A stretch of DNA of 64,000 nt from Nonlabens agnitus (GTDB lineage: Bacteria > Bacteroidota > Bacteroidia > Flavobacteriales > Flavobacteriaceae). The notes under the pieces were generated by a model that worked only from the letters and a program-made list of their open reading frames with translations, did not search any database and had not been told where the DNA came from. Both the position numbers and the translations under genes were made by a program. Shown in pieces: positions 69-63,221 of this stretch. The stretch covers positions 1,960,501 through 2,024,500 of the forward strand of contig NZ_MQUC01000003.1 in NCBI RefSeq assembly GCF_002994045.1, given 5' to 3'. Position 1 is the first letter of the stretch. Each line of letters starts with the position of its first letter.

Positions 69-485
69 ATGAGTCTAACACCATTTCACCTAGCGATTCC
101 CGTGAGGGAAATCACTACCACCAGAGCATTTTACCGTGACACCTTGGGCATGAAAGAAGGCCGCAGTAGTGACCATTGGGTGGACTTTGACTTCTTTGGC
201 CACCAACTCGTCATTCACGTGAGCGACAATATTGCACCAGAGGTTTCCAACGCTGTAGATGGAAAGTCTGTACCAGTTCCTCATTTTGGTGTGGTACTGG
301 AATGGGATGATTTCCACGCTTTCGCGAAAGCGTTACAAAACAAAAACATCGAATTTATAATCGAGCCCTACATACGATTTGAAGGATTACCGGGCGAGCA
401 GGCCACGATGTTCTTCAAAGATCCTAGCGGAAATGCGCTGGAATTCAAATCGTTCAAGGATTTCAACCAAATTTTTGCAACATGA
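69..485 (+). CDS. VOC family (glyoxalase/dioxygenase fold) protein
   Basis: A 138-residue single-domain protein of the vicinal oxygen chelate superfamily. The start HLAIPVRE with FYRDTLGM, and the end [14 protein letters not shown], are the paired beta-alpha-beta-beta-beta signatures of the fold; His8, the His in HQLVIH near residue 50 and the Glu in ALEFK near 126 are plausible metal ligands. The substrate cannot be told from sequence; VOC members include glyoxalase I, dioxygenases and resistance proteins. The last bases overlap the next gene by 4 bp (ATGA), so the two are probably co-translated. Residues AFAKA in the middle are encoded by the dispersed palindrome at 317-332. Confidence 0.85.
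317..332. repeat. Dispersed 16-bp palindrome CGCTTTCGCGAAAGCG
   Basis: Perfect copy inside the VOC gene, read as AFAKA. Confidence 0.95.
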
Positions 486-919
486 ATCTGAAAGATTTTT
501 TTACACCAGACCAAGACTATGTGCTGGAAAAAACTAATGAAACCACCACAGAAGATGTGGACGAGGTGATCAAAAGAGAAGGAAAACTGTCCTTTCTTAT
601 GTCGACGGTCAAAATGCTTAAAAAGTATTACAAACTCGTCGATGTTATGATGATGATGATCAAGGATTACCGTAAAGGTGTTTATACTGCAGTACCATGG
701 TTTACTATTGCTGCCATAGGTGGTTCTTTGCTGTACGTAATTAGTCCCTATGACCTTATTCCAGATTTTATTCCTGGGTTGGGTTATATAGATGACATTA
801 CCGTACTGACAATTGTTGTGGGCTGGATAGATTCAGACCTACACCGTTATCTAGACTGGAAAATATCCCAAGATCACACGACTCCGGATGAAATTGACAA
901 AATAGAAGAGGCTCAATAA
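482..919 (+). CDS. YkvA family (DUF1232) membrane protein
   Basis: A 145-residue protein. Residues about 75-120 carry the DUF1232/YkvA signature ([19 protein letters not shown], then a hydrophobic [10 protein letters not shown] segment), preceded by another hydrophobic stretch near residue 75, so it is likely inserted in the inner membrane. The molecular role of the family is unknown. The start ATG overlaps the stop of the VOC gene. Its 3' end overlaps the convergent amidohydrolase gene by 7 bp, leaving no room for a terminator between them. Confidence 0.85.
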
Positions 920-2547
920 ACCTTTTCACCATTGATATAAGTTCCAACTACTTTAAGGTTGGGCACATTTTGAATCGGCATGTTCATGAGGTCTTCCTTA
1001 AGAATCATGAAATCTGCCGATTTTCCTTTTTCCAGACTTCCTTTTTCCTCTTCTTCAAAATTGGAATAAGCTGCCCAGATAGTCATGCCTCGCAAAGCAT
1101 CTTCTCGAGAGATAGCATCCTGCGGATTAAAACCACCTTCAGGATAACCAGTGGTGTCCTGTCTGGCAACTGCGGCATAAAAAGTTAAAAAAGGATTGAC
1201 CTGTTCTACAGGATAATCAGTTCCCAAAGCGAGCATTCCTGACTGATCCAACAATTTTTGATAGGCATAGGCACCTTTAATGCGCTCTGCACCTACTCGA
1301 TCCTGAGCCCAGTACATATCACTTGTGGCATGAGTAGGTTGTACCGATGGTAAAATCCTATCGCGATCAAAATATTCAAAATCTGCTGGACTAATGATTT
1401 GCGCGTGCTCCACACGCCATCTTCTGTCTGGCATATCATTGAGTAATTCACGGTACGTCTTAAGAACAACAACATTGGCACTATCGCCTATGGCGTGTGT
1501 GTTCATTTGATAGTCTGTCGCGGCAATACGCTCTGCTGTTTTTTTGAAATCTTCCACACTACTAAGGAGTGCTCCAAAATGGTTTTCACGGTCAGAATAT
1601 TCTTCTTTCATCGCGGCACCACGAGATCCTAGAGCACCATCTGCGTAAAACTTGATAGATCTAACATTCAATCGGTCGGTTTTGATAATGCCTTTATCCA
1701 GATAGTAATCTAGGTTTTCTGGTGTGTTGCTCACCATAGCATAAATCTTCATTTTTAAAGATCCAGCCTGTTGTAGGCTATCGATCAATTCAATGGTGTT
1801 GCGATTCAAACCAGCGTCATCTACCGTTGTCAGCCCATAGCTGAAGTTGATTTCCTGAGCATCCATCAACGCTTCGATATCGGCTTCACGGCTTGCGGCA
1901 GGAAAAGTTTTTTCTATCAATTCCATGGGATTGTCCACCAATATTCCAGTAAGCTGTCCATTGATTTGCTCAATATCACCACCTGAAAAAGCCGTTTGCT
2001 CATCAATACCTGCTAGATCAAGCGCTGCTTGATTTACAATCATCGCATGTCCATCAATACGGGTAAGAGCTACAGGTGTGTTGGGGAAAAGTTCAGTCAA
2101 TTCTGCCTTTGTGGGATATTCCTTGACATCCCAATCGTTTTGATCCCAACCACGACCTATGATGTAGCTTTTATTGTTTTTGTCTTGAAAGGCTTTTACC
2201 TTATCCAGTACTTCCTGATAACTGGTCGTCCCGACCAGGTCTACTTGCTGCAATTGCTCACCAAATCTGTAAAAATGACAATGCGCGTCAATCAACCCTG
2301 GATATACATATTGACCCTCTAGATCTATAATGCTATCTGACTTCAAATTAAGAGCATCGATTTCATCTTGAGTTCCGATAGCAAAGACTTTACCGTCTTT
2401 TACTGCCATAGCCGTCGCCACGCTGAATGCGTCATCGACAGTATAGATATTACCATTGGTATAAATGGCATCGACATAATTATCTGCATTTTCATTTCTG
2501 CAGGATACCAGCACTAGAACTATTAAGAGGAAGAAGATTCTTTTCAT
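913..2547 (-). CDS. Secreted amidohydrolase (YtcJ-like, amidohydrolase_3), lipoprotein
   Basis: A 544-residue metal-dependent hydrolase. It begins MKRIFFLLIVLVLVSC, a lipoprotein signal with a Cys after the hydrophobic core, so it is probably anchored in the envelope. Family marks are the N-terminal strand YTNGNIYTVDD, the metal-binding HCHF after PGLIDA, HAIGD and VEHAQ in the middle, and LGTDYPVEQVNPF near the end with the conserved Asp. Related YtcJ enzymes hydrolyse amides or cyclic amides; the substrate here is unknown. An upstream GTG at 2565 would add six residues before the signal peptide, so the ATG at 2547 is preferred. Confidence 0.88.
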   Translation of the reverse strand: MKRIFFLLIVLVLVSCRNENADNYVDAIYTNGNIYTVDDAFSVATAMAVKDGKVFAIGTQDEIDALNLKSDSIIDLEGQYVYPGLIDAHCHFYRFGEQLQQVDLVGTTSYQEVLDKVKAFQDKNNKSYIIGRGWDQNDWDVKEYPTKAELTELFPNTPVALTRIDGHAMIVNQAALDLAGIDEQTAFSGGDIEQINGQLTGILVDNPMELIEKTFPAASREADIEALMDAQEINFSYGLTTVDDAGLNRNTIELIDSLQQAGSLKMKIYAMVSNTPENLDYYLDKGIIKTDRLNVRSIKFYADGALGSRGAAMKEEYSDRENHFGALLSSVEDFKKTAERIAATDYQMNTHAIGDSANVVVLKTYRELLNDMPDRRWRVEHAQIISPADFEYFDRDRILPSVQPTHATSDMYWAQDRVGAERIKGAYAYQKLLDQSGMLALGTDYPVEQVNPFLTFYAAVARQDTTGYPEGGFNPQDAISREDALRGMTIWAAYSNFEEEEKGSLEKGKSADFMILKEDLMNMPIQNVPNLKVVGTYINGEKVY

Positions 2548-2594
2548 GGCATAAAAATAAGACACAAAATTTTGAGATCTCCTATAAAATCAAA

Positions 2595-2625
2595 AGAAGC
2601 TACCTTAATAGATAGCTTCTTTTTT
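2595..2625 (-). terminator. Terminator after the barrel gene
   Basis: An 8-bp stem (AGAAGCTA at 2595-2602, TAGCTTCT at 2613-2620) lies downstream of the minus-strand barrel gene that ends at 2695. T-rich sequence flanks it on both sides, so it may work in both directions. It also lies just upstream of the amidohydrolase start. Confidence 0.6.
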
Positions 2626-4431: not shown

Positions 4432-4432
4432 A

Positions 4433-7400
4433 TTAATTATTTGATGGAGCTATGGAAGAATTAGTTTTGGCTTGTACCGCTTTGATGCGGTTCAGTTCGG
4501 TTTTTGCGTTGGCAACTACTTCTCGATATTGAGAGAAATTATCGATCACGCCTTGCAGTAGGGTCACGGCATTCAACGTCTGGTTGGTCGCGTCATAGCT
4601 TTTTGCCATCACGACCAGACCTTTGGCACTCCATAATTTATAGCTACCGTAGTTTTTGGATAAGCCTTGAACGGTATTGATTGCCTGCTCGTGCTTGCCA
4701 TCTTGATTCTCAAAATAGGCTTTGTAATAGGTAGCCTCTGCAGCTATGGCACCATTCGCGCTTTTCAACACCTGGGCATATCCACTTTTTGCTGCGCTCG
4801 TGTTACCGTTTTTGAAAGCAGATCTTGCGATGATCACCTCTGCATCACTGCGCACGGTACTGTCTGTGCCGCTGTCACGCAACACCTTGTTGGCATAACT
4901 TTCAGCCTTGTCGTATTGTTCGGTTTCATAGTAGGCTTTCATCAGGTTGGATTGTGCATAGGCCTTGTTTTGTGGGAAATCTGCCGTGGCTTCCAGTTTG
5001 ATTAATACGGGTATCGCTTTCGCGAAAGCGGACTTTCTATCCACACCGTCGCTCACCGCATCATTGAGGAATAACTCACTCAATCGCGCCAGTGCCTGCT
5101 CGGAATACTCGCTGCGCTCGCGGTTTGCCACGTACTCATAATGCGGTATGCTGGCTTTTTTATTGCCTTCAGAAAAGTAGGCTTGCGCCAGATTGAAATG
5201 CGCCTGCAATGCATATTTCCCGTTAGGGAATTGCTCCAAATATTTGTTGAGCTCGCGTATCGCACTGCTCATATTTCCCTGTAAAAATGGACGCTCTGCA
5301 CTCTCATAAGCCGTGTCGTCCAGCTCACTGTCGCTCACGTCAATGAAATCGAGACCGCGCACCCAGTTGGCATATTCCGCAGTTTTTCCCTGATCGATGT
5401 ACACCAATCTGGCACTGCTCACAGCCTCAACCGCTTGCGGCGTACCTGCATATTTTGAAGCCACTTGCTTAAACACACCCAAAGCCTCATCCAACCTGTT
5501 ATCATTGTAGAACTGCAGGCCTTTACGCATCATGGCTGGTGCCGTGTATCGGCTGTTAGGAAACTCTGAAATCAATCGATCATAGGTCTTGATACCATTA
5601 TTGACCTGACCGTTGTTGATGTAGGTATTTCCCAACTCATACATCACATCGTCGCGATATTGCGAGGTTTTGTAATTGCTTAAGAATTTATTGAGCTCTT
5701 CAATCTTACTTTCCACGCGCTGGATAAAACCGTATGACATTCCTTTTTGGAAACTGGCATAATCTGCGCTGGAACCACCAGCTTTTATGGCTTCATTATA
5801 GGACTCGATGGCTGGCCAGTATTTTTTTGAAACAAAATTTGCATCGCCTATGCGCATGTAGGCGTCGTTTTTTCTTACAGGGTCATTGGCACTAGCCACA
5901 AATCGTTGCATGGCATTAATGCTGGCATCATAATCCTGCAATTTAAAATAGGTGTAACCCATGTCGTAATCCAACAGATCGTCCTCTTCTATACGGGCAT
6001 TGCTACTTTTGACACGGTCAAATTCTGCAATCGCGCCCTTGAAATCATTCAGTTGGTACAAACTTTCGGCTCTCCAGAATCTTGCCTTTTTCTTGAGGTC
6101 GTTTTCTTCTAAATACTTGATCGCCTTATCTAGACTGGTTTGGGCTTCTTTATAATCGCCAGCCGTGAATTGATTGAGGCCGTGATATAGCGCTACTTTA
6201 CCGTACACATTCTCATTACCTCTTATGCGACCATCTTCCAGAAGTTCTAGTGCCTCTGCATAATTCTTTGAGGTAAAGTACGAGTCGATGAGATAGGTGT
6301 TCATCTCGTCCTTATTGTCAGCATCTGGATAGGCTTCCATGTAATTAAGGATCACCTGTGGCACGCTTTCATAAGGATTGCCGTTCTCATAACTAAGCTT
6401 TGCATAGTTGTACATGGCATCCTTGGTAATTTCTTCGTCAAGTGCAATCTCACTTGCTTTTTTGAAGGCGTTGAGTGCGTCCTCGCTGCGGTTGAGTTTG
6501 ATGTAGCTCTGCCCAAGATGGTAATAGGCGTTCTGTGCCGTTTTGTTCTCGCCATCAATAATTTTATTGAATGTGGCAACTGCATTTTCAAAATCGTTGA
6601 GTTTGTAATAGGTATAACCCAACTGATAGTAATCATTGTTGTTCCACTTACCACGAGTACCTTCATAGGCTTGTAGGTAAGGCAGAGCTTCCGCATACTT
6701 TTCCTGATTGAAAAGTGATTGTCCTATAATACGATTGAGTTGGGATTGTTCCTGACGGTTGGAACTGGACATTTGCTTTTGTGCCAAAGCAATAGCCTCA
6801 TCAAAACGTCCCAATTTATAATTTAAATCTGCCTGATAATAGGACAGCTTATCGTCTGTCTCTGGCGCTTGCTCTACCTCGCTAAAGAGTTCATCTGCTG
6901 TTTCCAGATCATCACCTTCATAAGCGATGTAACCCAGGTAATATTTGGCTTGCGATCCATAGGTTGGATCGTCACTAACTCTGTTCAAAAATGGCTTTGC
7001 TTCATCAAACTTCTTGCTTTGTACCAAGGTGTACCCGTTGTTGAAGTAGAATTTTGTTTTTTGCTCACGAGAAAGGTTTCTCTCATCTACCTTTTCATAC
7101 CATTGCGCAGACTTGCGGTAATCACCGTTCTCAAAATAATAATCCGCCACGTCTATAAAAGCGCTATTGCGTTTTGTGGAAGTTGGGTATTGTTCTACAA
7201 AACTCTCCACCATTTCATCTGCATTACGCTGGTTTAATCTCACGGCACAATTAGCCGCATAGTAAGCCGCATTGCCTTTGATCGTCTCGTCTGCAGACTG
7301 GTCAATGACCTGCTCAAAAAGACGTTGCGCCGCAACATATTGATCTTCCTGATAGAGATCTACTGCCGTGTTATAGTTGCGCAACTGGTCTGTAAAAATT

Positions 7401-7593: not shown

Positions 7594-8277
7594 ATGTCAA
7601 ACCACGTGCTTTCACTATCAGAGGTCGATATCTTCCAACGGGACAACTTGATCCTTAAAGATGTGAACCTCAACATTGATAAAGGTGAGTTTGTCTACCT
7701 CATCGGGAAAACCGGTAGCGGTAAAAGTTCCCTGATGAAGACCTTGTACGGCGACATACCGCTTAAAAAGGGAAAAGGTAGCATTGTAGATTTTGATTTA
7801 TCTCGCTTACGCGAAAGCGAAATTCCCTACCTGCGTCGCAAACTAGGCGTCGTCTTTCAAGACTTCAAATTGCTTACGGACAGGACGATTCAAGACAATT
7901 TAAAGTTTGTTTTGAAAGCCACTGGCTGGAAAAACAAAACCGAAATGCAGGACCGTATCGATGCGGTTCTTGATAAAGTAGGCATGAAAACCAAAGGCTT
8001 TAAATTCCCACACGAGCTTTCTGGTGGTGAGCAACAACGTGTGGCCATTGCAAGAGCTCTATTGAACGACCCAGAACTCATCATAGCAGATGAGCCTACT
8101 GGAAACCTGGACCCACAAACCAGCGTGGAAATCATGGAAGTGCTCCAGACGATCAATAAAAATGGCAATACGATTCTCATGGCAACCCACGATTATGCCT
8201 TGATCCTAAAGTATCCATCAAAAACACTCAAATGTGACGATGGTGAAGTGTTTGAGGTGGTTCAAAAAACGGTTTGA
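7594..8277 (+). CDS. ftsE: Cell-division ABC transporter ATPase FtsE
   Basis: A 227-residue ABC ATPase. Walker [10 protein letters not shown] at 38-46, Q-loop VFQDFKLL near 87-94, signature LSGGEQQ at 142-148, Walker B LIIADEP at 162-168 and switch His199. The length, short linker and sequence around the Q-loop fit FtsE, which with FtsX regulates peptidoglycan hydrolases at the septum. No ftsX is adjacent, as often in this phylum. Upstream in-frame starts exist at 7585 and a TTG at 7564; 7594 is chosen because MSNHVLSL fits the usual N-terminus. Residues RLRES are encoded by a one-mismatch copy of the palindrome. Confidence 0.85.
7804..7819. repeat. Palindrome variant (1 mismatch)
   Basis: CGCTTACGCGAAAGCG within ftsE, read as RLRES; differs from the 16-mer by one base. 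Confidence 0.8.
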
Positions 8278-11247: not shown

Positions 11248-12387
11248 ATGCGCATCTTGCTGGTAGGCGAGTACAGTAATTTCCACAACTCACTCAAATA
11301 TGGGTTGGAATTTTTAGGACATGAGGTCACCATCATAGGCGATGGCGATGGTTTCAAGCGGTTTCCCGTAGATATTAATATCGGGAACGATTTCTTGGAA
11401 CGCTCTTGGTTCACGCGCAAGCTCAAGGTTGGATTATGGAAAATCACGGGCTACCATCTAGCAGATTATTTAAAGTTATCTCGCTTTCGCGAAAGCGAAC
11501 CTCTTCTCAAGCATTATGATATCGTACAGTTCATCAATTCCAATCCATTTAATTGTGGTGCACGTACGGAGCGGAAAATGTTAGAATCGATTATCGCTCA
11601 AAACAAAAGGTTTTTTCTTGCTGCCTGCGGTGATGATCACGAATATGTAAAATACCTCACAGAAGAGCACCAAGGCTACAGCATTCTTGAAGCCGTCAAG
11701 CACGGCAAGCAGCAACAAACAGATTTTCAATACTCCTATAAATACCTGAAACCTGCCTATCGAGACAACTATTACCGCCTAGTTGATGTGGCTACACATG
11801 TGATACCTAGCAATGTGGATTATGCCATGGCGCTAACTCATAACCCTAAAGCTATTCCTATCATACCAGCGGCCATCAACTGTGGTGCATTACATCTGGA
11901 TCAAAACGCAGACCTAAGCGTTATCAAAATCTTTGTGGGAATCAATAGGTCCAACTATTGGAAAAAAGGAATCAATTATTTTGAAGAAACTCTAGAAATT
12001 ATAAAGAAAAAATATGGCTCTAAGGTAGAAGTCATGACAGCAGAAAATCTGCCATATAACGAGTATGTAAAGATTTACAAGAAGGCGCATATCTTACTGG
12101 ATCAAGTGCTTTGCTATGATCAAGGTTACAATGCTCTGGAGGCGATGTTACAGGGAAAAGTGGTTTTTAGCGGTGCCGGAGAAGTTTATCTAACCGCGCA
12201 TCAACTTACCAGTGTACCCGCAATAGACGCGCAACCAGATGTAGATTACCTAGTAGGAAAATTATCTGAACTCATTGACCATCCTATTTCCATTCTTGAA
12301 ATAGGTCGTACCGCCCGCAATCATGTATTACAACATCATGAAAGTGTCATGATTGCAGAGCGCTATTTGCAATACTATCAGGAATAA
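11248..12387 (+). CDS. Glycosyltransferase, GT-B-like
   Basis: A 379-residue protein starting MRILLVGEYSNFHNSLKYGLEFLGHEV, a Rossmann-type N-terminus of GT-B transferases. The C-terminal half has IFVGINRSNYWKKG, a substrate-binding helix region DQVLCYDQGYNALEAMLQGKVVFSG in the place of the usual ExxxE motif, and a terminal helix ERYLQYYQE. It is diverged from classical GT4 enzymes but fits a surface-glycan role among its neighbours. Residues RFRESE (79-84) come from the palindrome at 11482-11497, placed between the N-terminal helix pair and the next strand. Confidence 0.75.
   Translation: MRILLVGEYSNFHNSLKYGLEFLGHEVTIIGDGDGFKRFPVDINIGNDFLERSWFTRKLKVGLWKITGYHLADYLKLSRFRESEPLLKHYDIVQFINSNPFNCGARTERKMLESIIAQNKRFFLAACGDDHEYVKYLTEEHQGYSILEAVKHGKQQQTDFQYSYKYLKPAYRDNYYRLVDVATHVIPSNVDYAMALTHNPKAIPIIPAAINCGALHLDQNADLSVIKIFVGINRSNYWKKGINYFEETLEIIKKKYGSKVEVMTAENLPYNEYVKIYKKAHILLDQVLCYDQGYNALEAMLQGKVVFSGAGEVYLTAHQLTSVPAIDAQPDVDYLVGKLSELIDHPISILEIGRTARNHVLQHHESVMIAERYLQYYQE
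11482..11497. repeat. Dispersed 16-bp palindrome CGCTTTCGCGAAAGCG
   Basis: Perfect copy inside a glycosyltransferase gene, read as RFRES. Confidence 0.95.
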
Positions 12388-12786: not shown

Positions 12787-12802
12787 CGCTTTCGCGAAAG
12801 CG
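12787..12802. repeat. Dispersed 16-bp palindrome CGCTTTCGCGAAAGCG
   Basis: Perfect intergenic copy whose symmetry extends outwards (TTCGC...GCGAA plus flanking TTG/CAA) so that it could form a long hairpin after the E2 gene. Confidence 0.95.
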
Positions 12803-16201: not shown

Positions 16202-17683
16202 TTGACTTCTACCCAAATTTTAATCACTATCGCCGTTTATTTTGCGGTTCTCGTTGGGATTTCATTTATCGTGGGCCGCAAGAGCGACAGCGCCACTTTT
16301 TTTAGAGGTAATCGTAGCTCGCCTTGGTACATTGTAGCATTTGGAATGATAGGTGCCTCATTGAGCGGCGTAACCTTTATCTCAGTTCCTGGTGCCGTTG
16401 AAGCTGGCGCGATGAATTATTTTCAGGTCGTCCTCGGGTATATCGTGGGCTATGCAGTGATTGGGTTGGTTTTAATGCCATTGTACTACCGCATGAATCT
16501 CACTTCCATTTACAGTTATCTAGGTGATCGTTATGGCAGCGCCGCGCAATATACCGGCAGTAGCTTTTTTCTCTTGTCGCGCATCGTAGGCGCAAGCTTT
16601 AGATTGTATCTCGTGGCTGGTGTTTTGCAAACTTTCGTATTTGACCAGATGGACATAGCATTCTGGCAGACAGTGACCTTTACCGTTTTGTTGATTTGGC
16701 TATACACTTTTAAATCAGGAATCAAGACCATTGTCTGGACAGATACGTTGCAAACCCTTTTTATGCTCATTGCTTTGGGTGCCGCGATATATTTTATATC
16801 AGATAGTTTGGATTTGGGCGGTTTTAGTGGTGTCGTGAATTTTGTCAATGATAGCGACCTGTCTCAAATCTTCTTTTGGGACGATTGGAAAAGCGATCAG
16901 TATTTTGTCAAGCAATTCCTTGCAGGTGCGTTTATAGCTATCGTGATGACCGGGCTGGACCAAGACATGATGCAAAAAAACCTAACCTGTCGCAGCCTTC
17001 AGGATGCTCAAAAGAACATTTTCTGGTTCACACTTGTTTTAACAGCAGTCAACTTTGTTTTTTTAGCCCTAGGCGTGCTGCTTACCGCTTTCGCGAAAGC
17101 GGAATCCATAACAGCCACAAAGGACGATTTATTTCCTGCGATTGCCATTAACGGTGGCCTGGGAATAGGTATGGGATTGGTGTTTCTGCTAGGATTGATC
17201 GCCGCGGCCTATTCCAGTGCAGACAGCGCACTGACCTCACTCACCACATCTTTTTCTGTAGATATCGTAAAAATCGAAACCAGATTCACAGAGCGACGCC
17301 AGCAATTGCTGCGCAAATTGTTTCACATCGGGTTTTCTGTGATTTTGATATTGGTGATCGTGAGTTTTGAATATGTCATCAAGGACGCGAGTGTGATCAA
17401 CAAATTGTTTGTATTTGCAGGATATACCTACGGACCGCTGTTGGGATTATTTGGGTTTGGGATATTGACAAAAAGGAGTGTTTACCACAAAATCATTCCG
17501 TTTATTGCGATTGCATCACCATTCCTCACCTACCTTATCAGTTATCTATCATCCACGTATAGTGGCTTTGAGTTTGGTTTCTTTGTGTTGCTGTTGAATG
17601 GTGCCGTTACCTTTATAGGCTTATTGGTGGCTAGTTTGTTTAGTCCTCAAGCTAACGCTGAGCCACTTGCTGCTCATTCTTAG
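16202..17683 (+). CDS. Sodium:solute symporter (SSS family)
   Basis: A 493-residue integral membrane protein with about 13 hydrophobic segments, including YFAVLVGISFIVGRKS at the N-terminus, GASLSGVTFISVPG in TM2, and AAYSSADSALTSLTTSFSVDI in TM8, the typical sodium-site region with Ser/Thr residues. SSS members import sugars, amino acids or vitamins with Na+; the substrate is not evident. The start is a TTG; the next in-frame Met is within TM2, so TTG is needed to include TM1. Residues AFAKAE in a loop are encoded by the palindrome at 17086-17101. Confidence 0.88.
   Translation: MTSTQILITIAVYFAVLVGISFIVGRKSDSATFFRGNRSSPWYIVAFGMIGASLSGVTFISVPGAVEAGAMNYFQVVLGYIVGYAVIGLVLMPLYYRMNLTSIYSYLGDRYGSAAQYTGSSFFLLSRIVGASFRLYLVAGVLQTFVFDQMDIAFWQTVTFTVLLIWLYTFKSGIKTIVWTDTLQTLFMLIALGAAIYFISDSLDLGGFSGVVNFVNDSDLSQIFFWDDWKSDQYFVKQFLAGAFIAIVMTGLDQDMMQKNLTCRSLQDAQKNIFWFTLVLTAVNFVFLALGVLLTAFAKAESITATKDDLFPAIAINGGLGIGMGLVFLLGLIAAAYSSADSALTSLTTSFSVDIVKIETRFTERRQQLLRKLFHIGFSVILILVIVSFEYVIKDASVINKLFVFAGYTYGPLLGLFGFGILTKRSVYHKIIPFIAIASPFLTYLISYLSSTYSGFEFGFFVLLLNGAVTFIGLLVASLFSPQANAEPLAAHS
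17086..17101. repeat. Dispersed 16-bp palindrome CGCTTTCGCGAAAGCG
   Basis: Perfect copy in the SSS symporter gene, read as AFAKA. Confidence 0.95.
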
Positions 17684-19810: not shown

Positions 19811-20422
19811 ATGCATAACAAGTCCAACTCACTTATTGAACTCGAGATTCCTGATGCTCAAGTGTACTATGATGAAGGATTTTTCGCTTTCGCGAAAGCG
19901 AAACAACTTTTCACCACCTTGCAAGAACAAACGCCATGGCGACAAAATAAGATTACCGTTTTTGGCAAGACCTATGACGAGCCACGACTCACGCAACTCT
20001 ATGGTGACGATCAAATGGAATACAGTTACAGTGGCATTACCTTCAAAGCGCTGGAATGGTCGCCATTGCTACAATCAATCAAAGAAGATGTTGAAGCTGC
20101 AACTGGTCATCAATTCAATATTTGCCTGGTCAACCTATACAGAACCGGTGCAGATTCCAACGGCTGGCATGCCGATAATGAACCAGAACTGGGCAAGAAT
20201 CCGGTGATCGCATCTGTAAGTCTAGGACAGGAACGCTTCTTTCACTTGCGCCACAGTGAGAATAAGGAATGGAGGTACAAATTCCCGCTCAAAAATGGTA
20301 GCCTGCTACTCATGGCTGGTGCGACCCAACACACTTACAAACACCAGATTGCCAAAACCAAACGTGATATCCGACCACGTATTAACCTGACCTTTAGAAA
20401 AGTCGTGGATGCCAGTGTTTAA
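19811..20422 (+). CDS. AlkB-like 2-oxoglutarate/Fe(II) dioxygenase
   Basis: A 203-residue oxygenase of the AlkB family, which removes methyl groups from damaged bases by oxidation. The iron ligands are H120 and D122 in GWHADNEPELG, with H178 in TYKHQIAK as the distal His; RPRINLTFR holds the 2-oxoglutarate-binding Arg and a second conserved Arg. ITVFGKTYDEPRLTQLYGD is the nucleotide-recognition lid. The open frame begins at a TTG at 19745, but the ATG at 19811 matches the usual length. AFAKAK at 26-31 is encoded by the palindrome. Confidence 0.9.
   Translation: MHNKSNSLIELEIPDAQVYYDEGFFAFAKAKQLFTTLQEQTPWRQNKITVFGKTYDEPRLTQLYGDDQMEYSYSGITFKALEWSPLLQSIKEDVEAATGHQFNICLVNLYRTGADSNGWHADNEPELGKNPVIASVSLGQERFFHLRHSENKEWRYKFPLKNGSLLLMAGATQHTYKHQIAKTKRDIRPRINLTFRKVVDASV
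19885..19900. repeat. Dispersed 16-bp palindrome CGCTTTCGCGAAAGCG
   Basis: Perfect copy in the alkB-like gene, read as AFAKA; flanks extend the symmetry (TTTTCGC...GCGAAA). Confidence 0.95.
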
Positions 20423-21833: not shown

Positions 21834-21849
21834 CGCTTTCGCGAAAGCG
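21834..21849. repeat. Dispersed 16-bp palindrome CGCTTTCGCGAAAGCG
   Basis: Perfect intergenic copy 15 bp after the hydrolase stop codon and 69 bp before the DUF819 gene. Confidence 0.95.
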
Positions 21850-24291: not shown

Positions 24292-25266
24292 CTATACAGA
24301 CACAACCAATAATTTGCCTTCGCCATGAGGCGTGACGCTTATGTTCTCCACAGCGGCAGGTATCAAATAAGTTTGTACAGATTCAAATACATAGGTTTTT
24401 CCAGCGTGGACCAGCTCGCAGGACGCACCTACATTCATAAGAATCGTGAAGCTGAAACCTGTCGACAGCTCAATGGGGCACGCTTCTTTAAATCGAAGGA
24501 TATCTGTTTTAAAATATATTGTTTTGACTAACTGTTGACGGTCGTATTGATCCTCGTTATAGTGCAATTGATAGTCGCTGGCCTTGCTATAATCTGCAGC
24601 GGCGATCGCTTCTTGAACGTGCAAATCGCGCTGGTTACCATGAGCATCTTCACGACCATAATCGTGGACGCGGTAAGTGATATCGCTGCTTTGCTGTATT
24701 TCGGCTAGCGTGATTCCTGCGCCGATGGCATGTACAAAACCTGGCTTGATCACAAAAGACTCACCTGGTGTAACTTGATGCCTGTTCAATAAATTAAGCA
24801 GTTGATTGGATGTTATCGCTTTCGCGAAAGCGAACTCATCACTAGCTTCTTTAAAACCCAACGTGAGTTGTGCCTCTGGACTTGCATCCATGATGTACCA
24901 CATCTCTGTCTTGCCAAAGCTGTCGTGTTTATTTTGTGCCAGTTGATCGTCTGGATGCAGCTGGATGGATAGGTCCTGCGCGGTATCGATGTATTTGATC
25001 AATAAAGGAAACCTAGAGCCGAATCTTTCAAAAACAGGTTTACCCAGAAGTTCGCTACCATGAAGCTCAAGTAATTCTTTGATTGAAGTGCCGGCAAGTA
25101 CTCCATTCTTTACGATGGAAATAGTATCGTCTACATCGCTTATTTCCCAGCTTTCGCCTAGGTTTGAAATAGCAGGATCAATGGATTTGAGCTCGTTAAG
25201 CTTACTGCCGCCCCATATTTTTTCCTTATAAATGGGCTCAAATATAAGCGGGTACCATTCCATCAT
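24292..25266 (-). CDS. manA: Type I mannose-6-phosphate isomerase
   Basis: A 324-residue class I phosphomannose isomerase, which converts fructose-6-phosphate and mannose-6-phosphate. The cupin zinc ligands are visible in QLHPDD (Gln and His), EMWYIM (Glu) and PGFVHAIGAG (His); YRVHDYGRED is the conserved downstream strand. It supplies GDP-mannose and thus fits the surface-glycan genes elsewhere in the window. It overlaps queD by ATGA. AFAKAI is encoded by the palindrome at 24817-24832. Confidence 0.92.
   Translation of the reverse strand: MMEWYPLIFEPIYKEKIWGGSKLNELKSIDPAISNLGESWEISDVDDTISIVKNGVLAGTSIKELLELHGSELLGKPVFERFGSRFPLLIKYIDTAQDLSIQLHPDDQLAQNKHDSFGKTEMWYIMDASPEAQLTLGFKEASDEFAFAKAITSNQLLNLLNRHQVTPGESFVIKPGFVHAIGAGITLAEIQQSSDITYRVHDYGREDAHGNQRDLHVQEAIAAADYSKASDYQLHYNEDQYDRQQLVKTIYFKTDILRFKEACPIELSTGFSFTILMNVGASCELVHAGKTYVFESVQTYLIPAAVENISVTPHGEGKLLVVSV
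24817..24832. repeat. Dispersed 16-bp palindrome CGCTTTCGCGAAAGCG
   Basis: Perfect copy in manA, read as AFAKA. Confidence 0.95.
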
Positions 25267-41304: not shown

Positions 41305-41320
41305 CGCTTTCGCGAAAGCG
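41305..41320. repeat. Dispersed 16-bp palindrome CGCTTTCGCGAAAGCG
   Basis: Perfect intergenic copy between the rpoC operon end and the giant gene. Confidence 0.95.
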
Positions 41321-41385: not shown

Positions 41386-41691
41386 TTAGGCTTGACCGGT
41401 AGGTCCAAAGTTTAAAGGTATCGGCGGCTTATCATAATCTTTGATATCGCCGTGCATGGATTCAAACTTTCTCACGTTATCTGCAAGAGCCTGTGCCAGT
41501 CTCTTAGCATGTTGTGGAGTTAGTATTACCCGTGACTTCACCTTTGATTTAGGATTCCCAGGCATTATATTCACAAAATCTACCACAAATTCTGATACCG
41601 AATGGTTAATAATAGCGAGGTTGCTATATTGACCTTCAGCCACTTCAGGATCTATTTCAATGTTGATTTTATGATCTTTATTATCAGCCAT
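41386..41691 (-). CDS. DUF3467 family protein
   Basis: A 101-residue protein: EIDPEVAEGQYSNLAIINHSVSEFVVDFVNIMPGNPKSKVKSRVILTPQHAKRLAQALADNV, the whole DUF3467 signature. Function unknown. Its ATG overlaps the rpoC stop by one base (TAATG), so it is translated as the last gene of the rpoBC operon; a role near RNA polymerase is inference from position only. Confidence 0.88.
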   Translation of the reverse strand: MADNKDHKINIEIDPEVAEGQYSNLAIINHSVSEFVVDFVNIMPGNPKSKVKSRVILTPQHAKRLAQALADNVRKFESMHGDIKDYDKPPIPLNFGPTGQA

Positions 41692-44600
41692 TAGTTATAG
41701 TTCACTTGTGGTTCATCACGACGCTGTAACAATTTTTCGAACTCTTCTTTAGAGCCTACGATGATATCGTCATAATTACGCATTCCTGTTCCTGCTGGAA
41801 TTCTATGACCAACAATTACATTCTCCTTAAGACCTTCTAGAGTATCTACCTTACCGCTTACCGCAGCCTCGTTCAATACTTTTGTAGTCTCTTGGAAGGA
41901 CGCTGCACTGATAAAGGATTTAGTTTGAAGCGATGCTCGAGTAATACCTTGGAGTACTGGCTCTGCCGTTGCTGGCTCTACATCACGTGCTTCTACTAAT
42001 GCTTTATCTTCTCTCTTCAAGATGGAGTTCTCGTCACGCAATTGACGTGGTGTGATTACTTGCCCTTCTTTAAGAGTTGCAGAATCTCCTGCATTTTCCA
42101 CTACTTTCATTCCATACAAGTTGTCGTTCTCCTTGATGAAATCTTCTTTGTGAACCAATTGGTTCTCTAGGAATACTCCATCACCTGGATCAACAATCTT
42201 CACTTTTCTAAGCATTTGTCTTACAACAACTTCAAAGTGCTTATCATTGATCTTAACTCCTTGTAACCTATATACTTCTTGAACTTCATTTACCAGGTAC
42301 TGTTGAACAGCACTAGGACCTTTGATCGCAAGAATATCCTTAGGAGTAATAGATCCATCAGAAAGTGGCATACCAGCACGAACGTAGTCGTTCTCTTGTA
42401 CCAAGATCTGGTTAGAAAGTTTTACTAGATATTTCTTAACCTCGTCAGTTTTAGAAGTAACGATGATCTCACGGTTACCACGCTTGATTTTACCGAATGA
42501 AACAACACCGTCAATCTCACTTACTACAGCAGGATTAGATGGGTTACGAGCTTCAAATAGTTCAGTTACTCGTGGTAGACCTCCAGTAATATCACCTGCC
42601 TTAGCAGACTTACGTGGAATCTTAACAAGCACTTTACCTACCTTGATCTTCTCTTCATCATTCACCATTAAGTGTGCACCTACCGGTAAGTTATAACTGA
42701 TCTGAGTTTCTCCTTTAGCATCAACAATGTGAAGCGTTGGAATCAACTTCTTATCTCTTGAGTCAGAAATTACTTTCTCTTCATAACCAGTTTGCTCATC
42801 AGTCTCTACTTGGAAGGTCGTTCCTTGTATGATGTTTTCAAACTTGATCTTACCTGCAAATTCAGATATAATCACACCATTAAAGGCATCCCATTTAGCA
42901 ATCAGATCACCTTTCTTCACGGTAGAACCAACTTTAGCATAAAGTTCTGAACCGTAAGGAATGTTGTTAGAGTTCAAAAGAATTCCAGTTTTTGGGTGTA
43001 GCAACTTAGATTCTGCCGTTCTTGAAATAACAACTTCAACTGGGCTACCATCACTGCTTTCACCTTTCACTGTTTTGATATCTTCTATTTCAAGTATACC
43101 GTCATTCTTAGCAATGATTGTGTTCTCTTCAGAAACGTTACCTGCAACACCACCAACGTGGAACGTACGCAATGTCAATTGTGTTCCTGGTTCACCGATT
43201 GATTGTGCGGCGATCACACCAACAGCTTCTCCACGCATTACCATTCTATTAGTCGCTAGATTACGACCATAACATTTAGCACAAACTCCTTTATCAGCCT
43301 CACAAGTCAATGGAGATCTAACCTCTACTGACTCTAATCCAGAAGCATCAATCTGATCTGCGACTTCATTTGTAATCAACTCTCCAGCAGCTACAAGAAC
43401 ATTTTGAGAAGCTGGATCGATTACATCATTAAGGGCAGTACGTCCTACGACTCTTGCACCTAAGCGCTCCATCACCTCTTCATTCTTTTTCAATGCACTA
43501 ACATCGATACCTCTAAGTGTTTCACAATCTACCGTGTTGACGATAACATCTTGTGCAACGTCATGTAGACGACGCGTTAGGTATCCAGCATCTGCCGTTT
43601 TCAATGCGGTATCTGCAAGTCCTTTACGTGCACCGTGAGTTGAGATAAAGTATTCAAGAATCGATAGTCCTTCCTTAAAGTTGGAAAGAATCGGGTTCTC
43701 AATAATTTCTCCACCACCAGAGTTGGATTTTTTAGGCTTGGCCATCAATCCACGCATTCCAGTAAGCTGGCGAATCTGTTCTTTAGATCCACGTGCTCCA
43801 GAGTCAAGCATCATATACACAGAGTTGAACCCTTGCTGGTCCTCTCTAATGTTTTTCATCGAAAGCTCAGTCAACTGTGCGTTAGTTGCTGTCCACACAT
43901 CGATCACCTGATTGTAACGCTCGTTTTGGGTAATAAGACCCATACCGTAGTTACCACGTATCGTATCAACTTTTTTGTTTGCAGCATCAATCATGGATTG
44001 CTTTTCTTCTGGGATCATGATATCACCCAAAGAGAATGACAATCCACCACGGAATGCAAATCCATAACCTAAGTCTTTAATTTCATCAAGGAAAGCCGCT
44101 GTTCTAGGCACATCAGTCACCTTAAGAATATCACCTATAATATCTCTAAGTGCCTTTTTAGTAAGGACCTCATTGATATAACCAGCTTCATTAGGAACTT
44201 TCTCGTTAAAGATTACACGACCAGCAGTGGTCTCAATAATCTCAGCTTTATAAGAACCATCTGGTTGTAGCAAGTTGATTCTACACTTGACTGGTGCGTT
44301 GATGTCAACGCGCTTTTCATTAAATGCAATAACCAATTCTTCTGGACCGTAGAACGTCAAACCTTCACCTTTAACGATGTGGTCTGGTTCAGATCTTCTT
44401 AATTTAGTCATGTAATACAGACCCAAGACCATGTCTTGAGAAGGTACTGCGATTGGACTACCGTTCGCAGGGTTCAAAATGTTGTGTGATGCAAGCATCA
44501 ACAATTGACATTCAAGAATTGCTTCTGGTCCTAATGGTAAGTGTACCGCCATCTGGTCACCATCAAAGTCGGCATTAAATGCCGTACATACTAATGGGTG

Positions 44601-45998
44601 CAACTGGATTGCCTTACCTTCAATCAACTTAGGTTGAAAAGCCTGAATACCTAGTCTGTGCAACGTAGGAGCACGGTTCAACATCACTGGATGTCCTTTA
44701 AGAACGTTTTCCAGAATGTCCCATACTACGGGTTCCTTCTTATCTATAATTTTCTTGGCAGATTTTACCGTTTTGACAATACCACGCTCGATAAGCTTTC
44801 TAATAACGAAAGGCTTATAAAGCTCTGCAGCCATGTCTTTAGGCAATCCACACTCATACAATTTCAATTCTGGTCCAACGACGATTACAGAACGAGCCGA
44901 ATAATCTACACGCTTACCAAGTAAGTTTTGACGGAAACGTCCTTGCTTACCTTTTAAGGAGTCAGAAAGGGATTTCAATGGTCTGTTAGAATCTGTCTTA
45001 ACTGCACTAGATTTTCTAGTGTTATCCAACAATGAGTCCACAGCTTCTTGAAGCATACGCTTCTCATTACGCAAGATTACCTCTGGAGCCTTGATTTCCA
45101 TCAAACGCTTCAAACGGTTGTTACGTATGATCACACGACGATACAAGTCATTCAAGTCAGAAGTTGCGAAACGACCACCATCTAATGGTACCAATGGACG
45201 CAATTCTGGTGGAATAACTGGTACGACTTTCATGATCATCCATTCTGGATTGTTCTCACGATTCTCGTTAGATTCCTTAAGTGCTTGAACAACTTGAAGA
45301 CGTTTTAAAGCCTCCATCTTACGTTGCTTAGAAGTCTCGTTGTTTGCTTTGTGACGCAAGTCATAAGACAATGTCTCAAGATCTATACGCTGTAGCAAGT
45401 CAATTAGACACTCTGCACCCATTTTTGCAATAAACTTGTTGGGATCAGAATCATCCAGATACATATTCTCTTGCGGCAATGTATCAAGGATGTTTAGGTA
45501 CTCTTCTTCAGTAAGGAAGTCTAATTTTTGTAGCTCATCACCATCTTCATTCTTTGCGATACCTGGCTGAATTACTACGTATCTCTCGTAGTAAATGATC
45601 ATGTCCAGTTTCTTTGACGGCAATCCTAATAGGTAACCTATCTTATTAGGCAAACTACGGAAATACCAGATGTGTGCCACAGGAACCACAAGGTTGATGT
45701 GCCCTATACGGTCACGTCGCACCTTCTTTTCAGTTACCTCTACACCACATCGATCACAAACGATTCCTTTGTATCGGATTCTTTTGTATTTACCACACGC
45801 ACACTCATAATCCTTTACAGGACCAAAGATGCGCTCGCAGAACAAACCATCTCTCTCTGGTTTGTGGGTACGATAGTTAATCGTTTCAGGTTTCAAGACT
45901 TCACCTCTTGACTCTGCCAGAATGGATTCTGGAGATGCAAGACCTATGGAAATCTTTGAAAATTTCTTCTGCGTTTGGGTTTCGTTATATCTAGCCAT
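41691..45998 (-). CDS. rpoC: RNA polymerase beta' subunit
   Basis: A 1435-residue catalytic subunit. N-terminal zinc site in [23 protein letters not shown]; the catalytic magnesium loop [28 protein letters not shown] before it; the trigger-loop region [26 protein letters not shown]; second zinc site [17 protein letters not shown]. Length is usual for Bacteroidetes. rpoB ends 93 bp upstream, with a palindrome in the gap. Confidence 0.98.
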
Positions 45999-46049: not shown

Positions 46050-46065
46050 CGCTTTCGCGAAAGCG
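46050..46065. repeat. Dispersed 16-bp palindrome CGCTTTCGCGAAAGCG
   Basis: Perfect copy in the spacer between rpoB and rpoC; it would be transcribed as a hairpin in the operon mRNA. Confidence 0.95.
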
Positions 46066-53172: not shown

Positions 53173-53188
53173 CGCTTTCGCGAAAGCG
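53173..53188. repeat. Dispersed 16-bp palindrome CGCTTTCGCGAAAGCG
   Basis: Perfect intergenic copy between tuf and tRNA-Trp, close to the tuf terminator. Confidence 0.95.
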
Positions 53189-54658: not shown

Positions 54659-54674
54659 CGCTTTCGCGAAAGCG
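54659..54674. repeat. Dispersed 16-bp palindrome CGCTTTCGCGAAAGCG
   Basis: Perfect copy in the spacer between tRNA-Thr(GGT) and tRNA-Gly, hence in the tRNA precursor. Confidence 0.95.
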
Positions 54675-56415: not shown

Positions 56416-56431
56416 CGCTTTCGCGAAAGCG
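56416..56431. repeat. Dispersed 16-bp palindrome CGCTTTCGCGAAAGCG
   Basis: Perfect intergenic copy just after the acyl-CoA dehydrogenase gene; symmetry extends to TTTTCGC...GCGAAA. Confidence 0.95.
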
Positions 56432-57636: not shown

Positions 57637-58491
57637 TTAGTCCAACGTCAAATATAGCTGAATTAAAGCCAATTTTTCCGTTGGGAATCTTGAGGTGAGC
57701 GTTACATCCTTCCAGGTTTTGAAACCATCCCGTAAGGTGCGCTGCTCTATGAGTTTATCGACAAGGTAGTCGTTAAAATATGGGATTGTTGACAGCTGGT
57801 CGCTGGTCGCGTTATTGAGCGCTAACTTTTTAAAGCCAGCCTTTGGTGTGACATAAAAGTGTTTACGCAATTCGACCATAGTAGAATCTGAAAGTCCGTA
57901 AACATCACGTACCTGCATGATGTCAATAAAACCGTCAAGTTTTTCCCGTTCTTTCACAATCCGGCCAGATAGCGCAGGTCCTATTCCATATACTTTGCGC
58001 AAATCCTCCAGCGATGCCTTGTTAATATCCATGGCAACTATTTTTCGGTCGGAGAAGTCGCTGGAGTAGCTTTTCCTAGGCTCGTTGACCCATGATGGAA
58101 ATTTGAAATAGGGCGAGATGCTATCCAGCCACTTGTCGCTTACTTTAGTGACTTGTTGAAATTGAGCAGCCGTGTTGATGAATTTTCCGCTTTCGCGAAA
58201 GCGAGACAGCCTATCCAACTCTGCTTCATTCAAACCTAAAATGTAGGCTCTATAGTCAGTGATATAATTGGGGTTGAAGGGATAAATGGTGTCCTTTCTC
58301 TTTGCCGTGGCCATCTTGATAGAATCAATTTGAGCCTGGTATTTAGAAACGTCACTCAACACGATATCTGACGTTGGTTTAGTGGCGGCATAGTATCTAA
58401 TTCCCACAACGACCACCAATAAAATGAGTAAAATAAAAATCCCTCTTTGTTGTCGCCTATTGAACAAAAAGAGGGATTTGAAATGTTTCAT
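57637..58491 (-). CDS. ComEA-like helix-hairpin-helix membrane protein
   Basis: A 284-residue protein with an N-terminal membrane anchor (GIFILLILLVVVVGIRYYA) and repeated HhH motifs: LNEAELDRLSRFRES about 90-105, DINKASLEDLRKVYGIGPALSGRIVKERE about 165-195, and LALNNATSDQLSTIPYFNDYLVDKLIEQR later. ComEA-like HhH domains bind DNA without sequence preference; a role in DNA uptake or envelope-linked DNA is possible. RFRES in the first motif is encoded by the palindrome at 58188-58203. Confidence 0.8.
   Translation of the reverse strand: MKHFKSLFLFNRRQQRGIFILLILLVVVVGIRYYAATKPTSDIVLSDVSKYQAQIDSIKMATAKRKDTIYPFNPNYITDYRAYILGLNEAELDRLSRFRESGKFINTAAQFQQVTKVSDKWLDSISPYFKFPSWVNEPRKSYSSDFSDRKIVAMDINKASLEDLRKVYGIGPALSGRIVKEREKLDGFIDIMQVRDVYGLSDSTMVELRKHFYVTPKAGFKKLALNNATSDQLSTIPYFNDYLVDKLIEQRTLRDGFKTWKDVTLTSRFPTEKLALIQLYLTLD
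58188..58203. repeat. Dispersed 16-bp palindrome CGCTTTCGCGAAAGCG
   Basis: Perfect copy in the HhH gene, read as RFRES on the minus strand. Confidence 0.95.
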
Positions 58492-61676: not shown

Positions 61677-61684
61677 AGTGGTGC

Positions 61685-61912: not shown

Positions 61913-61949
61913 ATGTCAAATGTACTCTATAGAACCTAATATTTCCTAG

Positions 61950-63221
61950 CTATTGACCGCTCATTAATCGCACACCTATATCGCATTTAAGACATAAATT
62001 CTGCTCACAATAATTAGGTTTAAGCTGCAGCACAGCCTGAGATTCCAAAGCAGTTTTAATGCCAATCAATTTCTTGAATCCTTGTGTTATCGTATTTTTT
62101 TCCATCGGGATATCGCTTATGATTCCCAGCAATTCATCGGTATTATCTTTCCCATGATGGCGAGCATAGGCAAATTTGATGGGCACGATGCAATTGATAA
62201 TTAACAGGTCGATAAAGGATTGTGTTAAGACCTTTTCTCTAGATTCGGTTTGTTTGTCAAATACATGATGCGTGTCCCAATATTTTGCAGCTTTCACGTC
62301 AAACACCGCGCTAATTTCTGCTTTGGATTTTGCCAAAATGACCTGAGCAAGCAGCATAGGATTTCTATGATACAACATAGCAAGTTGAGATAGGCGAATG
62401 GTTGGATAATTTGCTGGTCGCAACCTGAAAAACTTTAAATCTGTTGGTATAGGTTTTAATTGAAATTTCGCTTTCGCGAAAGCGAACTCCTTCTCAAGCA
62501 GGCTAAAATATCGATCTTCTCGCGGTGTGTCCAGCAATCCCAATAAGCCCATCAAAACAGATTCCAGCTGGAAAGCGTCGGCAGCCAGTTTACGCACCAC
62601 AGATTGATCCATAGCCGTTGCGATTTGCTCAAAGGCATCTGCATTTACCTTAGTTCCAAAACTGCGTGCCAGCATTTGAAAAAAGGTGGCTTCCCAGTCA
62701 TTATTGTTCTGTTTCAAGCTTTTCTCGATGCGCTGGTAGCGCTGCTCCAGTCGCTGGATGTAGACCTTTTCCAACCACATATCAACCTGAAAAGAATCCA
62801 CCTGATGGATGAGTTTCTCACAATTGATGAATTGATCGTTTTTGTAGGCGAATAGCTTTGTGTAGGTGAGAATCGCATCATCAGGCACGTATGTCGATAC
62901 CTCAAGTACTGGTATGTCGATCTCACTGCGCCTCGTGATCTCTGCATCGTGCTTCCAGACCACGTGTAGGATAACGTTGTCATAAGCTGGATCATCATCA
63001 TGGCCGTGCTTGTACCAGTCGCTGGATTTTACATGCATCTCTACATTTCCAGCCCATAATTGACCATCGATCTCTACCTGTGCATTGAAAAAATCTGGTC
63101 CAGAATGGTGATTATGATGCCCTAGGTTCTTGATCACTACCAATTGATGCTTAGTGGTACGCAGCTGTAGACCACTCAACTTTTTGAACTTCCAGAGGTA
63201 ATGGATAAAATCTTCCCGCAT
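61950..63221 (-). CDS. DUF2851 family protein
   Basis: A 423-residue protein: MREDFIHYLWKFKKL, LGHHNHHSGPDFFNAQVEIDGQLWAGNVEMHVKSSDWYKHGHDDDPAYDNVILHVVW are the conserved start of the DUF2851 family. The end has four Cys (NYCEQNLCLKCDIG) that may bind metal. The nuclease-like core pattern (H, GPDFFNA, E in NVEMH) suggests a restriction-endonuclease-like fold, which is inference. EFAFAKAKF is encoded by the palindrome at 62469-62484. Confidence 0.85.
   Translation of the reverse strand: MREDFIHYLWKFKKLSGLQLRTTKHQLVVIKNLGHHNHHSGPDFFNAQVEIDGQLWAGNVEMHVKSSDWYKHGHDDDPAYDNVILHVVWKHDAEITRRSEIDIPVLEVSTYVPDDAILTYTKLFAYKNDQFINCEKLIHQVDSFQVDMWLEKVYIQRLEQRYQRIEKSLKQNNNDWEATFFQMLARSFGTKVNADAFEQIATAMDQSVVRKLAADAFQLESVLMGLLGLLDTPREDRYFSLLEKEFAFAKAKFQLKPIPTDLKFFRLRPANYPTIRLSQLAMLYHRNPMLLAQVILAKSKAEISAVFDVKAAKYWDTHHVFDKQTESREKVLTQSFIDLLIINCIVPIKFAYARHHGKDNTDELLGIISDIPMEKNTITQGFKKLIGIKTALESQAVLQLKPNYCEQNLCLKCDIGVRLMSGQ
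62469..62484. repeat. Dispersed 16-bp palindrome CGCTTTCGCGAAAGCG
   Basis: Perfect copy in the DUF2851 gene, read as AFAKA. Confidence 0.95.

Follow-up and report, generated by a model that had tools for sequence, protein, structure and literature searches.

A 64,000-nucleotide stretch of the Nonlabens agnitus genome (hereafter the window; C4:1960501-2024500 of the genome labelled G000, which has 3,215,882 bases) contains 16 perfect copies of CGCTTTCGCGAAAGCG, a 16-letter perfect palindrome. Counting over the whole genome gives 676 perfect copies, i.e. 210 per Mb or about one per 4.8 kb, far over the approximately 0.0003 copies expected from independent bases. An earlier reading of the window from its letters (the sequence-only reading) had proposed that the palindrome is a maintained genome-wide mark, and this proposal is well supported by the count, by its presence in all 23 Nonlabens genomes searched and by the conservation of its sites, including one upstream of rpoC. 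Since two genera preserve a 16-bp word in hundreds of intact copies, many of them at old homologous places, we conclude that something reads it. Tentatively, and by analogy, we favour reading the palindrome as a clade-specific mark of self DNA, which would work like a DNA uptake sequence.

The sequence-only reading was correct in its observation and even understated it. All 16 perfect copies lie where it had placed them, with a mean spacing of 4.1 kb in the window (about 4 kb had been given), and none arose in 100 dinucleotide shuffles of the window, in agreement with its statement that chance would give none. With up to two mismatches allowed, the window has 21 matches, against 0 expected from the shuffles; 16 of them are perfect, four have one mismatch and one has two. 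The near copies it had named at 7804, 33701 and 34361 stand, with one mismatch each; what it took for a 14-bp core at 37230 proves to be a 16-mer at 37229 with a single mismatch, and the near copy that it gave as 36594 lies at 36590 and has two mismatches. Over 464 kb of the genome, 95 perfect copies are accompanied by 22 one-mismatch, 8 two-mismatch and 4 three-mismatch copies, which is a steep fall-off with little decay. CGCTTTCGCGAAAGCG read backwards has no copy in the genome, and 20 samples of 20 kb across the chromosome hold 1-8 palindromes each, with no evident gradient. The palindrome is over-represented throughout the genome, as is asked of a highly iterated palindrome (HIP), and its copies share no longer unit. 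With 676 perfect copies genome-wide, neither of the two outcomes that the earlier reading had named as speaking against it, a frequency near expectation or copies that are all part of one longer mobile sequence, was observed.

That the sites are maintained is seen from comparison of homologous places. Against G007, which is 95.7% identical to G000, 29 of 31 sites are intact compared with 57.7% of background 16-mers; one of the two non-intact sites of G007 lacks a base and the other has 20 extra bases, while an additional site is whole in G007 but not in G000, which has T for C. Against the more distant G019 (about 78% identity) 12 of 14 sites are intact vs 6.8% of background 16-mers, and against G018 the figures are 10 of 13 and 6.6%. 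Across the comparisons with G019, G018, G008, G002, G020 and G022, 6-16% of background 16-mers are intact. Directly upstream of rpoC, 19/19 Nonlabens genomes and two genomes outside the genus (G250 and G234) have the 10-bp core, and 19 of these 21 have the full 16-mer, while the flanks of the site have diverged among its carriers. All nine genomes of other genera examined lack the core at this place; some of them carry a few copies at other positions.

In its distribution, the palindrome follows a small part of the family. The 23 Nonlabens genomes carry 180-737 copies each. The same search covered 36 genomes from other genera, and only one of these has any (4 copies). Among 397 genomes of the family, from 237 genera, 48 have at least one copy: four Nonlabens (448-676), G250 (630), G234 (153) and 42 others with 1-13. 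G250 matches Dokdonia (probably Dokdonia sinensis), G234 represents its sister genus, and G008 is probably a Nonlabens. A pattern scan of named genomes returned at least 111 stretches; among the 80 matches listed, 67 are from Nonlabens (including strain BBFL7) or Dokdonia and 13 are scattered among others. Strong genome-wide over-representation limited to one clade, the mark of the DNA uptake sequence (DUS) and the uptake signal sequence (USS), is therefore what we found. A tree of RpoC joins G250 and G234 as sisters with support of 100/99 and places Nonlabens in a separate clade; since the tree is rooted by midpoint only, a single origin of the palindrome is compatible with it rather than demonstrated by it.

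The sequence-only reading held that the flanks share little beyond TT/AA. Instead, we found a symmetric base bias that reaches at least 15 bases and, weakly, 30. To the left of the palindrome T and G are favoured and C is scarce, and to the right A and C are favoured and G is scarce. The share of C on the 5' side is 5-8% over the first 15 bases, 10-16% at 16-30 and 16-21% at 31-40, against a background of 18-21%, and its depletion is present in coding and intergenic sites taken separately. The same trend is seen in Dokdonia (G250 and named loci) and at other Nonlabens loci, and more weakly in G234. Within the palindrome itself the outer base pair is the loosest, taking 10 of the 22 single mismatches in the 464 kb, and it is relaxed in G022 (four 16-mers and nine 14-mers in 60 kb) and G234 (seven 16-mers and 22 14-mers in 200 kb). 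Left and right flanks show no copy-by-copy covariation, and the extension of an RNA or DNA stem was rejected on this ground. At conserved sites, flank identity is 0.72-0.80 within 15 bases and 0.76-0.79 at 16-60, so that the flanks diverge about as fast as distant DNA. As the flanks neither covary nor diverge more slowly than DNA farther away, composition is under tighter constraint in them than exact sequence, and the palindrome is the core, 14-16 bp long, of a larger symmetric site whose flanks are constrained in composition over 15-30 bp.

Placement of the sites bears on two further explanations. ORFs (open reading frames) were called by a simple script rather than an annotation pipeline, and in the window they gave the same split, nine copies in genes and seven between, as the sequence-only reading. 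Of the 95 sites in 464 kb, 51 are in ORFs and 44 between them, though ORFs make up 87% of the DNA (P 3e-15); intergenic sites are 3.5 times commoner than DNA content predicts. The coding sites are read in the AFAKA frame in 32 of 51 cases, and 18 of the 51 fall in the first 40 codons, in some cases in stretches that resemble signal peptides by eye. A perfect inverted repeat with 44 of 95 copies between ORFs could be a transcription signal, either a terminator or an operator. We consider this hardly credible, since convergent, divergent and tandem gaps carry sites roughly in proportion to their length without preference, the hairpin is followed by no T-run, the flanks do not covary, and about half of the sites are inside ORFs and one is between two tRNAs. 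A short hairpin-forming repeat with an intergenic excess also invites the suggestion of a relic of a short mobile element, such as a repetitive extragenic palindrome (REP) with its REP-associated tyrosine transposase (RAYT) or a miniature inverted-repeat transposable element. To this we give the least credence of all, as more than half of the sites are in ORFs, no longer unit is shared, the sites repel one another, the site before rpoC is common to three genera, and the RAYT family PF01797 is absent from five of nine carriers, including G000; the combination of transposase and extragenic location that marks REP/RAYT systems was not found.

The repulsion is evident from the distances between neighbouring sites. 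Over the first 498 kb of the G000 main contig, none of the 93 gaps is below 500 bp (8.6 expected), two are below 1 kb (16.5) and three below 1.5 kb (23.7), and in samples spread over the genome one of 74 gaps is below 1 kb (16.5 expected). Gaps below 1 kb number 0 of 95 in G007 (20.4 expected), although many homologous sites are common to G007 and G000, so that the spacing of G007 is not independent, and 0 of 22 in G250 (3.9 expected). A trend in the same direction, not significant at 1 kb, is found in G019 (1/15, 3.5 expected), G018 (0/12, 2.3) and G002 with G020 (0/7, 0.7). Sites are thus seldom within 1-2 kb of one another. At 34 kb, the longest gap among the 93 contains genes matching the Wadjet JetA, JetB, JetC and JetD models, at G000:C4:298001-318000.

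Over-even spacing, together with dyad symmetry, symmetric flanks and deep conservation of sites, is also what might be expected if the palindrome were bound by a clade-specific dimeric protein that organises the chromosome, in nucleoid structure, segregation or division control, with one anchor per 2-5 kb; the spread samples, holding sites everywhere without evident gradient, agree with this. We regard this second explanation as unlikely, though it comes closest to the one we favour. A C-depletion that fades over about 30 bases is, in our judgement, unusual for a protein footprint, and known organisers of this kind use tens of sites rather than hundreds. Nor is there a ParB paralogue common to all carriers: one chromosomal ParB is common to 18 genomes, extra ParB-domain matches occur in the carriers G019 and G014 and also in two genomes of other genera (G033 and G438), and an alignment of ParB from three carriers and nine genomes of other genera, made without the window's own ParB, shows the same kind of helix-turn-helix in both groups. 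No carrier-specific ParB-family reader, as parS/Noc sites would call for, was therefore found among the 18 genomes, 12 of them aligned. Should the palindrome be a chromosome-organising site after all, it would be an unusually dense and specific one.

The flanks, for their part, bring to mind recombination. A bidirectional Chi-like site, at which an AddAB/RecBCD-type enzyme halts and RecA loading would be favoured by a G/T-rich 5' flank on either strand, would account for the C-poor, G/T-rich 5' sequence on both strands; about one site per 4.8 kb is near the density of Chi in E. coli, and the palindrome is absent from two phages annotated with recombination genes of their own. We think such a site improbable, because repulsion between sites is not a known property of Chi, a requirement for 16 bp would be extreme, and CGCTTTCGCGAAAGCG is a perfect palindrome in place of an asymmetric word.

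The sequence-only reading likened the palindrome to HIP1 and considered a methyltransferase among its possible readers. It had also named a nucleoid protein site and an uptake signal, both of which are among the more probable readings here. A mark kept together with an orphan DNA methyltransferase would suit a palindrome that is highly iterated in coding and intergenic DNA alike, as HIP1 is according to the part of PMC4390886 available. Among nine carriers, the C5-methylase family PF00145 is absent from four and the N6/N4-methylase family PF01555 from two, and G007, with 680 copies, has neither; moreover, the selected unit is a 14-16-mer with a steep fall-off and with flanks, not a 4-6 bp core. 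For the two methylase families covered, this explanation is thus very unlikely. Of the candidates examined (ParB, the two methylase families, RAYT and the pilus ATPase), none tracks the palindrome.

The ranking of the explanations, with the uptake-like mark first, the chromosome-organising site second and the bidirectional Chi-like site third, follows from conservation combined with free turnover of the flanks, from repulsion and from permissive placement, all of which match what is reported of DUS and USS. In neisserial genomes, DUS are biased to the core genome, stand at permissive but conserved places, are spaced in a way that matches conversion fragments and are absent from recently acquired genes, according to the excerpts available of PMC2397512 and PMC7371117. 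In the genomes studied here, the symmetric site, its conservation at homologous places, the repulsion, the placement where proteins tolerate it and the absence from two Nonlabens phages count in favour of an uptake-like mark. These phages, P12024S and P12024L, are close relatives that were isolated on a Persicivirga (Nonlabens) strain and are annotated without integrase; neither has a copy even with three mismatches, where about 7.5 would be expected in each at host density.

How such a mark might work is suggested by the transformation of Riemerella anatipestifer, which according to the excerpts of PMC8459023 at hand needs a DUF5689/DUF5017 protein, an outer-membrane protein, a helix-hairpin-helix (HHH) protein, a DUF1343 protein, ComEC, DprA, ComF and RecA; its authors report that the first four lack homology to known machinery and have homologues in most of the family's genera examined there. 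We imagine that a symmetric DNA-binding receptor on machinery of this type, or a processing enzyme in it (its DUF5689/DUF5017 protein, outer-membrane protein, HHH protein and ComEC being the parts in question), prefers fragments that bear the palindrome, and that biased uptake followed by recombination would maintain the sites, either by molecular drive or by selection. One site per fragment would be enough, from which repulsion between sites would follow. More speculatively, the DNA could be opened or cut at the palindrome, which would put the C-poor, G/T-rich 5' sequence of the palindrome at the entering strand's 3' end. DNA uptake sequences are known from two bacterial families. With somewhat more reserve than for the mark in general, we propose that the palindrome may be a self-recognition sequence outside these two, dyad-symmetric and read by a transformation machine of Bacteroidota that does without type IV pili; it would be opened or cut in such a way that, on either side, a G/T-rich 3' end leads. 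The sequence-only reading had also allowed for a selfish word; without a reader protein this leaves repulsion and conservation unexplained, while molecular drive through biased DNA uptake would account for both. 

Genes of this machinery were found widely. ComEC and a DUF5689 protein are each present in 18/18 genomes, and the DUF5689 protein of G000 has a weak DUF5017 match; for the gene upstream of it, a scan of two partial stretches yielded no match to Pfam. The window itself encodes a helix-hairpin-helix protein (57637..58491, minus strand) that is weakly ComEA-like, being under the NCBIfam cut-off with its HHH_3 domain over the Pfam cut-off; it is like the Riemerella HHH protein in domain type. 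The gene for this protein carries a conserved palindrome (58188..58203, perfect, in the RFRES frame), which is identical in the 7/7 relatives aligned. At G000:C4:329-338 kb there is an operon that looks like one for a pilus or type II secretion system (T2SS), with T2SSF and T2SSE domains and a pilin-like protein; as an uptake pilus it was rejected, since the GspF-like protein is found in only 2 of 26 genomes.

Several observations weigh against an uptake-like mark. Transformation of Nonlabens or Dokdonia is putative in this analysis, and a search for the reader protein gave none. Genomes that lack the palindrome at high copy have the ComEC and DUF5689 genes just as well, and so these genes fail to explain the limits of the clade. 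A pilus/T2SS ATPase (T2SSE), which belongs to the machinery of both groups with known uptake sequences, is over the cut-off in one of 18 genomes, G000 itself, so that the type IV pilus machinery with a minor-pilin receptor expected for DUS and USS was not found in the 18 genomes as a group; given this, and given that the uptake role is argued by analogy, we do not file the palindrome as a DUS. Known uptake words are 9-12 bp long, according to an excerpt of PMC7811141, and are not palindromes. Conservation is weaker in G022 (4/8), G002 (2/5), G020 (3/5) and G008 (3/5), where, as in the other distant comparisons, some non-intact sites are shifted sites or have changes of the outer base. In 46 unselected bins of 10 kb, the four with less than 38% GC hold 4 sites and the 42 others 90 (P 0.08); once stretches chosen for being site-poor or next to such a region (L308-L311) are included, the figures are 8 sites in 10 bins vs 93 in 44 (P 0.002), a result biased by the choice. 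Scarcity of sites on low-GC islands is accordingly a trend and only suggested. Finally, of 30 contigs from the viral collection that have a copy, some reach 0.16-0.17 per kb, close to the host's 0.21, for example 6 in 37 kb; whether such contigs are temperate phages was judged by reading their ORFs.

Copies outside the clade were followed in low-copy genomes, of which 20 stretches (L256-L275) from 12 genomes hold 38 copies. By BLAST, 16 of the 20 stretches fall into related clusters, which hold 33 of the 38 copies. Two of them (L256 and L257) have hidden Markov model matches for four proteins, namely an AcrB-type pump, an outer-membrane efflux protein, a CusB-like protein and a metal P-type ATPase, and two further palindromes are within a DUF4138 gene or its BLAST relative; we take the DUF4138 gene to be of a kind that belongs to conjugative elements of Bacteroidetes. 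Such copies, lying in efflux/heavy-metal or conjugation-like genes outside Nonlabens and Dokdonia, possibly reflect transfer out of the Nonlabens/Dokdonia clade. The palindrome could then be used as a watermark, in that copies in other genera point to donors in this clade. In the efflux/heavy-metal clusters and the conjugation-like gene, found in several genera of Flavobacteriaceae, the palindromes (L256-L275) often have conserved spacings (933, about 2446-2481 and 3460 bp) and often lie within AFAKAQ stretches near protein starts.

Dialects of other genera were sought by screening palindromic 8-14-mers and gapped inverted repeats in 40-60 kb samples from nine genera, and no comparable long word was found. 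TTCNGAA is enriched 1.5-4 fold and CTTCNGAAG up to 9 fold in some genera; as TTCNGAA is biased to one codon phase, its enrichment is probably due to codon use. The sample of G259, which contains masked letters, has short words of its own, such as CGTTAACG with 10 copies vs 0.6-0.7 expected. In G022 (L226-L228), the inverted-repeat pairs CCAGAnnnTCTGG, GTATCnnnGATAC and TCAACnnnGTTGA occur 10-15 times in 60 kb and are perhaps the internal repeats of one gene.

The sites in the window, to which no strand is assigned, illustrate these features. Perfect copies within genes at 317..332, 5015..5030 and 17086..17101 (all in the AFAKA frame) and at 11482..11497 (RFRES) are identical in G019 and G018; those at 19885..19900 and 24817..24832, also in genes and in the AFAKA frame, have an altered outer base in G022. 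The perfect copy at 62469..62484 is again in a gene in this frame, as is the one at 30887..30902, which lies close to the start of a PorP/SprF-family gene. Apart from the one in the HHH gene, the remaining perfect copies are intergenic. The one at 12787..12802 is not at this place in G019 and G018, and that at 56416..56431 is one base short in G007. The copy at 41305..41320 lies past the 3' end of rpoC and a 101-aa ORF, and that at 46050..46065 is in the rpoB-rpoC spacer, just upstream of rpoC (41691..45998, minus strand), the gene that served as anchor for the tree and the orthologous region. Those at 53173..53188 and 54659..54674 lie between a tRNA and the EF-Tu gene and between two tRNA genes, respectively. 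At the G007 counterpart (L217) of the copy at 21834..21849, the palindrome is split at its centre by the 20 extra bases CTGTCTGCCGACAGGCAGGC, which are themselves partly palindromic; the inner 18-mer of CTGTCTGCCGACAGGCAGGC has four copies in 464 kb of G000, one in 460 kb of G007 and none in smaller samples of five other genomes, and is possibly a second, rarer repeat. Besides a one-mismatch copy at 7804..7819, the degenerate copies are in a gene for a 3052-aa CHU_C (type IX secretion) protein at 30986-40144, which has four of them and no perfect one: the one-mismatch copies at 33701..33716 and 34361..34376, which are the same variant 660 bp apart, the two-mismatch copy at 36590..36605 and a copy with one mismatch, in the outer base, at 37229..37244.

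We found no published description of the palindrome; its 12-, 14- and 16-mer are absent from the literature searched, mostly at listing level. The shorter word TTTCGCGAAA does turn up, in one instance in a paper about words absent from animal genomes (PMC8034619, in the portion available), and the text pairing Dokdonia with palindromes in the accessible part of PMC3478194 concerns CRISPR and a reference.

Among known systems, parS/Noc sites are palindromes of 14-16 bp read by dimers, and CGCTTTCGCGAAAGCG is like them in length and symmetry but has hundreds of sites and no second ParB common to all carriers. Chi sites are 5-8 bp long, asymmetric and oriented with replication; the similar density and the G/T-rich 5' flank are in common, whereas our palindrome is long and symmetric. 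HIP1 (GCGATCGC) of cyanobacteria is likewise a highly iterated palindrome inside and between genes. Unlike HIP1, CGCTTTCGCGAAAGCG is twice as long, its sites repel one another, no matching methylase was found in PF00145 and PF01555, and its density is 210 per Mb against the 1000-2000 per Mb generally given for HIP words in the part of PMC4390886 available. CGCTTTCGCGAAAGCG is thus a much longer member of the descriptive class of highly iterated palindromes, without a methylase link in the two families examined. An 18-nt palindrome of Caldithrix abyssi is also fairly uniform, unexplained and not part of a longer unit, but it has 38 exact copies, is intergenic according to its authors and is looser in sequence (PMC5317091, from an excerpt).

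Compared with the DUS of Neisseriaceae and the USS of Pasteurellaceae, our palindrome differs in being 16 bp long and symmetric where those are words of 9-12 bp, in its Bacteroidota host, in having no pilus/T2SS ATPase over the cut-off in 17 of 18 genomes and in a scarcity on acquired DNA that is only a trend, and uptake is here an analogy. Should the palindrome prove to be an uptake sequence, self-recognition during transformation would have arisen separately in Bacteroidota, with different machinery, and the preference of R. columbina for its own DNA, for which a k-mer search up to 10 bp left the uptake motif open according to the extract of PMC7965970 at hand, would gain a testable model clade. 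The likeness to DUS and USS, as far as the available parts of PMC2397512, PMC7811141 and PMC7371117 describe them, lies in hundreds to thousands of copies, an intergenic excess, permissive but conserved places, a spacing that may be tied to fragment length, and copies of another dialect on elements that have moved between genera.

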